Shown: one piece after another, positions 24,674 through 64,000 of the stretch
Layout of the letters: each line of letters begins with the position of its first letter
How positions within the stretch are numbered: position 1 is the first letter of the stretch
Assembly (NCBI GenBank): GCA_902519235.1
Contig: CABYJE010000002.1
Coordinates: forward strand, 1-64,000
Length of the DNA: 64,000 bases
Direction of reading: 5' to 3'
Source of the DNA: an uncultured Prochlorococcus sp.
GTDB lineage: Bacteria; Cyanobacteriota; Cyanobacteriia; PCC-6307; Cyanobiaceae
Notes under the pieces: generated by a model
Databases searched by the model: none
Seen by the model: only the letters and a program-made list of their open reading frames with translations
Told to the model about the DNA's origin: nothing
Translations under genes and position numbers: made by a program

Positions 24674-24874
24674 GACTTATATATAAACCCAAAACAAACA
24701 TTAATTATTTAAAGTCTTCAACTCAACATATAAGTAAAAATACTCAGATAAATATAAAACTCATAGGTTTGCTAAATCACTTTAGATGATTGGTATAGGG
24801 TGCACGCGAATTATCAGCTACTCACACTTGAGCTTTTTATGTAACATAATAAGTTTACATAAAGTAACAATTAA

Positions 24875-35972: not shown

Positions 35973-36001
35973 TTGACATCTAAGTATAAATACTTTATAA
36001 A
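35973..36001 (+). promoter_or_regulatory. Near-consensus promoter with palindromic spacer
   Basis: TTGACA (35973-35978), 17-base spacer, TATAAA (35996-36001). The last 14 bases of the spacer form the palindrome AAGTATAAATACTT (35982-35995), a typical repressor position. Start of transcription expected near 36007. Confidence 0.75.
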
Positions 36002-36006
36002 TAGAT

Positions 36007-36022
36007 TGTAGTGAATACTACA
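36007..36022 (+). promoter_or_regulatory. NtcA-type binding site
   Basis: TGTA-N8-TACA, a perfect match to the GTA-N8-TAC NtcA box with extended arms. It lies at the expected transcription start of the 35973 promoter, where bound NtcA would block and not activate. It could also form a 5' stem in the RNA. Confidence 0.6.
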
Positions 36023-37580: not shown

Positions 37581-37961
37581 TCATTTTGGTTCCCTTATAG
37601 CAGCAATAATTAATGCACCTATCAATCCGAGATTCATAAATACTGCCCTTTGATGGAAAGGGAATACATGAAAAATTATTGTTGTCGGAATAAGAAATAC
37701 TAATAAAAACACTGAACCGATTTTTTGTTTTTCTCCAAATATAAAAAATCCAGAACCCAAGATAAGACATACAATGGCTCCCACTAAAAGAATAGATGAA
37801 ATTTGTTCAGGAATACCTTTTGAAGAAATATATTCAACTGTTCTTTCAAAATCATTTATTTTACCTGGTATGGCTGAGATAAATAATGCAGAAATGAATA
37901 CTCTTGAAAAAAAATCTAAAAAATATTTGATACTTTTATTTTTCAAAAAAGAATTTTTCAT
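37581..37961 (-). CDS. DoxX-like membrane protein
   Basis: 126 residues with four membrane helices and the DoxX pattern: RVFISALFISAIPGKINDFE, later GAIVCLILGSGFFIFGE and FHVFPFHQRAVFMNLGLIGA. Family roles include redox or sulfur metabolism, but not settled. A second DoxX gene begins at 63786. Confidence 0.85.
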   Translation of the reverse strand: MKNSFLKNKSIKYFLDFFSRVFISALFISAIPGKINDFERTVEYISSKGIPEQISSILLVGAIVCLILGSGFFIFGEKQKIGSVFLLVFLIPTTIIFHVFPFHQRAVFMNLGLIGALIIAAIREPK

Positions 37962-41787: not shown

Positions 41788-42244
41788 AAATATTATTAAT
41801 TCTATTTTCTATTTAGCAATAAAATAATGTTTTGACAGTCTTAAATACCTTAAAAGCTTATTGAAATAAGAAAAGATTATATGTTTTGTTATTTATCTTG
41901 CTCTTAAAAATTAAAAAGAGCTTGAAAGTATCCCACCAACAAGCTCATGACGACATAGTTAGCTTCAGATTTCCTGATGTTAACCTGCTAAGCACTTCCT
42001 AAATGCTTCTTAAATTATACTAAGTAGAATTACTTACTGTGAGTATAAATGCTTACTTTGCGAACATATTCAAATATACTTGCTTAAGCAAAGAATTTAA
42101 TTAAAGCTTTTCAAATAACTTTTTTTGATAAAGCGGCCATAATATCGTCCTAGAAAAACTTGCCACAAATACTGCCTTGAATTAAGTTTACATAAGTTAA
42201 TAATCATGTTATATTCGTTTACATATCTAGGCAGTTTATTTTTT
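41788..42244. other. Non-coding region before hli with hairpins
   Basis: 457 bases. GAGCTTG (41918-41924) pairs with CAAGCTC (41940-41946); TTGCTTAAGCAA (42079-42090) is a 12-bp palindrome; AGTATAAATGCTT (42041-42053) resembles the spacer palindrome of the 35973 promoter. Regulatory region of the hli gene, possibly with a small RNA. Confidence 0.5.
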
Positions 42245-63683: not shown

Positions 63684-63711
63684 TTGACAAGTAAGTATAA
63701 ATACTTATTTA
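63684..63711 (+). promoter_or_regulatory. Promoter with palindromic spacer
   Basis: TTGACA (63684-63689), then the palindrome AAGTATAAATACTT at 63693-63706 filling the spacer, then TATTTA as a weak -10. The palindrome ends exactly 17 bases after TTGACA, as in the promoter at 35973. Drives the DoxX gene at 63786. Confidence 0.6.
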
Positions 63712-63785
63712 AGTATGACTTTTGCTCTTTAATCCACGATGGATAGTGTGACTAGTTATTTTTACTTAAGGATAAATTTTTAATA

Positions 63786-64000
63786 GTGCTTTCAACAATT
63801 CTTACCAAGTCGTTTAGCAAAGATACTGCTTTATTAATTCTTAGAGTTATAACTGGAACTGTTCTTATACATCATGGTTATGAGAAATTAGCAAACATAG
63901 AAAATTTCGCTGATGCCTTTGTAAGACCATTACATCTCCCATTCCCAATATTTTTATCATACATAGCAGCATTCTCAGAAATAGGCGGTAGTTGGTTATT
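63786..64000 (+). CDS. DoxX family membrane protein, N-terminal part
   Basis: Runs off the right edge; 71 residues visible from a GTG start. LILRVITGTVLIHHGYEKLA and LPFPIFLSYIAAFSEIGG are typical DoxX first and second helices. No closer ATG in frame. Confidence 0.88.
   Translation, partial: MLSTILTKSFSKDTALLILRVITGTVLIHHGYEKLANIENFADAFVRPLHLPFPIFLSYIAAFSEIGGSWL

Follow-up and report, generated by a model that had tools for sequence, protein, structure and literature searches.

A conserved palindromic element upstream of DoxX, a glutamine-II riboswitch gene, Yfr20 and ptox in Prochlorococcus is a probable operator of a small light/redox regulon

We analysed a stretch of 64,000 nucleotides from an uncultured Prochlorococcus sp. 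(the window), which contains a glutamine-II riboswitch aptamer followed by a short DUF4278-like peptide gene, the small RNA Yfr20 on the minus strand and, at its end, the beginning of a DoxX-family gene (Table 1). The 14-mer AAGTATAAATACTT occurs at 35982-35995 and 63693-63706, in agreement with the first-pass annotation, and in this genome each copy ends 17 bases beyond a TTGACA (35973-35978 and 63684-63689, respectively). The element had been described as a palindrome, which is accurate for its perfect 6-bp arms but not for the central AA. A weaker form had been placed before hli; the sequence in question, GAGTATAAATGCTT, is indeed found at 42041-42054 but is part of the minus-strand Yfr20 promoter, in which the matches at 42022-42035 and 42041-42054 form a tandem pair. 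A further match to the operator core, AAGTAAAAATACTC, lies at 24732-24745.

Table 1. Promoter elements, RNAs and genes at three loci of the window (positions counted from its first base)
Feature	Position	Strand	Remark
Riboswitch-promoter −35 box TTGACA	35973-35978	+	21/21 orthologs
Putative operator in −35/−10 spacer of riboswitch promoter	35981-35996	+	14-mer at 35982-35995; 17/21 match RAGTA-N4-TACTY
Riboswitch-promoter −10 box TATAAA	35996-36001	+	89/96 readable orthologs
NtcA-type box GTA-N8-TAC	36008-36021	+	assigned from sequence; overlaps predicted transcription start
Glutamine-II riboswitch aptamer, RF01704	36024-36086	+	58.4 bits, cut-off 33
DUF4278-like peptide gene, 33 aa	36106-36207	+	kept in orthologs
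Small RNA Yfr20, RF02367	41919-42008	−	85.5 bits, cut-off 44
Yfr20 −10 box TATAAT	42014-42019	−	TAN3T 2 nt past proximal operator in 30/30 orthologs
Proximal putative Yfr20 operator	42021-42036	−	centre about −21.5; 30/30 orthologs, single-base variants allowed
Distal putative Yfr20 operator (the weaker form)	42040-42055	−	centre about −40.5; 30/30 orthologs, AAGCA allowed in left arm
TTGACA, chance −35 look-alike	63684-63689	+	1/50 DoxX orthologs
Putative DoxX operator TAAGTATAAATACTTA	63692-63707	+	contains 14-mer at 63693-63706; identical in 41/50 orthologs
Predicted DoxX −10 box TTTAAT	63728-63733	+	21 nt downstream of operator in 48/50 orthologs
DoxX-family gene, GTG start	63786-64000	+	PF07681, E = 3.5 × 10−19; extends beyond window end

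With up to two mismatches to the 14-mer allowed, the window contains 10 matches vs. 3.4 expected from 100 dinucleotide shuffles, none of which reached 10, and the core AGTANNNNTACT occurs 4 times vs. 0.85 expected. The motif was searched for in genomes by sequence pattern. The 1.17 Mb assembly contains two exact copies of the 14-mer, which are the two sites given above, and none of the reversed control. Across the genus, an exact copy is present in 117 of 151 genomes, in many of which two copies lie on the same strand about 27 kb apart, and counting by hand over the initial 51 rows of the genus scan gave 66 palindrome matches vs. 16 for the control. Among 84,980 genomes of bacteria and archaea, the pattern TTGAC-N4-AAGTATNNATACTT occurs in at least 118 stretches; among the 118 matches listed, the Prochlorococcus riboswitch promoter accounts for 99 (3 of these incomplete) and a DoxX promoter for one, and 18 lie in neither context. 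The motif strings did not occur in the open-access papers searched. Because several sites per genome with the 10-base core AAGTA-N4-TACTT are expected by chance, we confine our claims to four loci at which the element is conserved over many genomes, namely DoxX, the riboswitch, Yfr20 and ptox.

Orthologs of DoxX were gathered by protein from 61 Prochlorococcus genomes, with no use of the motif in their choice, and 50 of them had a readable upstream region. When single-base variants are included, all 50 retain the palindrome: the exact 14-mer is present in 41, the form RAGTA-N4-TACTY in 45, and the remaining 5 are one base off. Conservation of the arms is 0.90-1.00 vs. 0.44-0.98 directly upstream, the element being kept more strictly than its flanks. 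In the two orthologs that do not have the predicted −10 box TTTAAT 21 nt past the operator, the box at the same position is altered; transcription is predicted to start near 63740. TTGACA is present in a single DoxX ortholog (1/50), that of the present genome, and a TTGACA 17 bp before the −10 box is not a conserved feature of this promoter. Many relatives have TTGGTA at the position of the TTGACA, so that few changes suffice for a coincidence. The identical geometry relative to TTGACA that the first-pass annotation had read into the two promoters therefore holds in this genome but is a coincidence of it, and we rejected a TTGACA-based geometry for DoxX. The minus strand carries a second DoxX-family gene at window 37581-37961, at a distance of 1.4 kb from the riboswitch gene. 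Upstream of DoxX in marine Synechococcus, degenerate forms of the palindrome occur in some genera, and in one Synechococcus-like genus (two loci) the palindrome forms the loop of a terminator-like hairpin, because of which we make no operator claim for DoxX in marine Synechococcus.

At the riboswitch promoter, the TTGACA geometry is conserved. Among 21 promoter sequences, three of which were chosen by palindrome and none by TTGACA, all contain TTGACA, located 17 bp before the −10 box except for a shifted spacing in MED4; the −10 box itself reads TATAAA in 89 of 96 readable orthologs. The 4 of the 21 orthologs that do not match RAGTA-N4-TACTY are one or two bases off, and the distance between TTGACA and the palindrome is 5 instead of 3 in MED4. 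The aptamer scores above the Rfam cut-off. The Type 2 glutamine riboswitch is associated with DUF4278 genes, e.g., PMM1846 (PMC6316151), and we use the name DUF4278-like on account of this published association, given that Pfam has no match to the 33-aa ORF at such a length. The present locus resembles that system in having an aptamer above cut-off, an NtcA-type box and a short DUF4278-like ORF, but differs from it in the palindrome, which is carried by this copy only, the other glutamine-II copies in the same genomes being without it. An element TGTAGC-N4-GCTACA, similar to the NtcA-type box, is found upstream of nearly all glutamine-II aptamers examined. In MED4 (1328000-1329300), the palindrome is kept, but Rfam does not recognise the aptamer, and a stop cuts the ORF of the peptide short after 15 codons.

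The two Yfr20 sites were compared across 30 orthologs picked by RNA family, without use of the motif. The distance between their start positions is exactly 19 bp in every ortholog (30/30), and the distal site ends 21 nt ahead of the −10 box. The RNA itself scores above the Rfam cut-off, and in one genome (G015) it occupies positions 1336435-1336523, identical to the coordinates published for MED4, in which the start of Yfr20 transcription was located at 1336435 by 5′RACE (PMC2518516). Given this start, the two sites are centred at −40.5 and −21.5. Yfr20 was the only non-coding RNA reported to rise, from its own promoter, upon a shift from darkness to high light (PMC2518516).

By following the motif through complete genomes, we reached a fourth locus, ptox (PF01786, E = 1.6 × 10−17). 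In 30 orthologs picked by protein, again without use of the motif, a site 15-23 nt upstream of the ATG is present in all 30; 27 match RAGTA-N4-TACTY, and the other 3, the present genome included, read GGGTA. Conservation of the arms is 0.90-1.00 (0.57 for the A/G first base) vs. 0.47-0.87 over the preceding 14 bases, with the exception of the adjoining T. This site shares neither the geometry of DoxX and Yfr20 nor that of the riboswitch. ptox varies about 73-fold across the day, with a maximum at 15:00 (PMC3441193). Its frame is broken in two nearly complete genomes (G022:C1:344367-344872 and G042:C1:334851-335353), the palindrome being retained at 335371 in G042. Upstream of five phage ptox genes, no host-type site was found; two of the five have TATAAATA, which is like a T4 late promoter. 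In phages P-SSM3 and P-RSM3, the sequence before ptox is AGTATAAATACCTATA, with resemblance to a T4 late promoter. In 2.9 million viral contigs, TTGAC-N4-AAGTATNNATACTT gave 14 matches, none of which, judged from the flanks alone, resembles a copy of the riboswitch or DoxX promoters.

The consensus over five equally weighted sites is TRAGTA-WWWW-TACTYA (16 letters), with nearly invariant arms and an A/T centre that varies between genes. Comparison of the promoters shows that a geometry is indeed shared, but by DoxX and Yfr20 and with the −10 box as reference; DoxX and the riboswitch do not share one with respect to TTGACA. The 21-nt gap between operator and −10 box is common to these two unrelated promoters, both of which have the dyad centre at about −40.5 (for Yfr20 via the published MED4 start, for DoxX by the equal gap to the −10 box) and no consensus −35, whereas the riboswitch and ptox differ. 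Placement near −40.5 with a consensus −35 missing is the arrangement of class II activators at CRP-type promoters, and repressors commonly bind within the spacer of promoters that are close to consensus.

Because orthologs were picked by protein or RNA family, the conservation at DoxX, ptox and Yfr20 is not conditioned on the motif; the orthologs come mostly from one genus and are not independent. The first-pass annotation had regarded its proposal as refuted if the motif were as frequent at random positions as in promoters or were not conserved in orthologous promoters; the matches exceed the random expectation, with only two exact copies genome-wide, and the site is kept in orthologous promoters at DoxX, the riboswitch, Yfr20 and ptox, so that the proposal withstands its own test. 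Conservation of the element before at least four unrelated genes, two of them strongly light-responsive, points to one shared control protein, and a putative operator shared by the two promoters originally noticed is well supported by this conservation and by the further sites at Yfr20 and ptox. Its designation as a repressor operator suits the spacer of the riboswitch promoter, but the DoxX and Yfr20 sites look like class II activator sites. Overall, the original observation is partly confirmed and its interpretation partly supported.

Taken together with the promoter geometries, these findings make it probable that a single dimeric regulator uses the palindrome as its operator and controls a small light/redox regulon consisting of DoxX, the riboswitch/DUF4278-like gene, Yfr20 and ptox. 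One dimeric transcription factor would bind all sites, activating DoxX and Yfr20 from the class II position at about −40.5, where a consensus −35 is lacking, and, by binding within the −35/−10 spacer, repressing the riboswitch promoter. The signal may be high light or the redox state of electron transport, since Yfr20 and ptox respond to light. We favour one such dual-acting dimeric regulator, although a common site at three genes would also be compatible with different proteins binding there. More tentatively, a single light/redox regulator might join the ptox electron valve, Yfr20, the DoxX membrane protein and the glutamine-sensing gene in a previously undescribed regulon, acting as activator from −40.5 and as repressor of the nitrogen gene from within the spacer. 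If so, light stress and nitrogen signalling would meet at one operator, the site at the glutamine-riboswitch gene linking a light signal to nitrogen control. The presence of such a conserved operator before ptox and Yfr20 offers a concrete handle on high-light sensing in these cells, and the consensus has enough specificity to be used as bait in identifying the regulator. Leaving sigma factors aside, fewer than 20 transcription regulators are listed for MED4, for which genetic tools were lacking at the time of that publication (PMC6778093).

Under a different reading, the same operator would serve a pure repressor that covers the −35 region at DoxX and Yfr20 and the spacer at the riboswitch, and that leaves the DNA in high light. 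In each of the three mapped promoters, there is overlap between the operator and core elements, the tandem Yfr20 sites at −40.5 and −21.5 would cover most of that promoter, and weak −35-like sequences are present (CTCACA at Yfr20, with 18-bp spacing). We nevertheless consider this less likely, because the DoxX and Yfr20 promoters, which lack a consensus −35, would be weak when free, and because the 21-nt gap to the −10 box is common to two unrelated promoters. It is far less probable that the palindrome arises by chance, or acts as an RNA hairpin or terminator instead of a protein site. The genome is AT-rich, the chance background is real, and the hairpin loop at DoxX of the Synechococcus-like genus does resemble part of a terminator, but conservation of the sites in 50/50 DoxX, 30/30 Yfr20 and 30/30 ptox orthologs with variable flanks refutes chance as the explanation. 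Moreover, no T-run follows the DoxX site, and the Yfr20 sites lie upstream of the mapped transcription start (PMC2518516).

As to the identity of the dual-acting regulator that we favour, our leading guess is a CRP/FNR-type protein distinct from NtcA, as suggested by the W4 centre between the arms and by the placement at −40.5. The site resembles CRP/FNR class II operators in its short-arm dyad, its A/T-rich 4-bp centre and, at DoxX and Yfr20, its placement near −41.5 in lieu of a −35 box, but differs from them in arm sequence, in being centred at −40.5 rather than −41.5, and in its spacer placement at the riboswitch. The FNR box is TTGAT-N4-ATCAA, and the NtcA box is GTA-N8-TAC. The regulators listed for MED4 comprise two Fur proteins, three of Crp type (NtcA included), RbcR, LexA, one of ArsR type, two AbrB, the GntR protein PMM1637 and six response regulators (PMC6778093). 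A Pfam scan of 25 proteins encoded in the window, a subset of its ORFs, gave no DNA-binding regulator.

It is improbable that the palindrome is the site of one of the characterised regulators LexA, NtcA, PMM1637 (CGRE1) or PedR. NtcA boxes also have GTA and TAC, but NtcA requires GTA-N8-TAC where the present site has GTA-N4-TAC, and the true NtcA-type box at the riboswitch locus is separate from the palindrome. The cyanobacterial LexA box AGTACWNWTGTACT, AGTAC-N4-GTACT, is likewise a palindrome with AGTA and TACT ends, but in it these are 6 bp apart vs. 4 bp here (PMC3091678), and the published PedR motif RWWTRGGYNNYY does not match (PMC13421787). PMM1637 regulates Yfr2, a light- and nitrogen-responsive small RNA (PMC6778093); its site CGRE1 resembles ours in being the operator of a light-responsive small RNA in the same organisms. 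We suspected this protein because three yfr2-family promoters contain AAGTA-N4-TACTC, located 43-57 nt before the RNA and beside a GTGACA element, and dropped it because the wider yfr2 family shares a different element, AACTGNCA/TGNCAGTT, as judged by our own comparison of yfr2 promoters rather than by the published CGRE1 sequence. In addition, CGRE1 has been reported nowhere else in MED4 (PMC6778093).

The core AAGTA-N4-TACTT recurs at several other places in the genomes searched: between ndhI-like and ndhA-like genes, named from their sequence (three loci), where a thrB-like gene ends ahead of an ndhD-like one (four loci), before a 137-aa ORF that adjoins an IF2_N small protein (three loci), and beside DnaA-box-like repeats (two loci). 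Elsewhere in the window, an ATPC RNA motif (RF01067, 99.3 bits) is located at 1012-1102, directly past the ATP synthase A chain gene.
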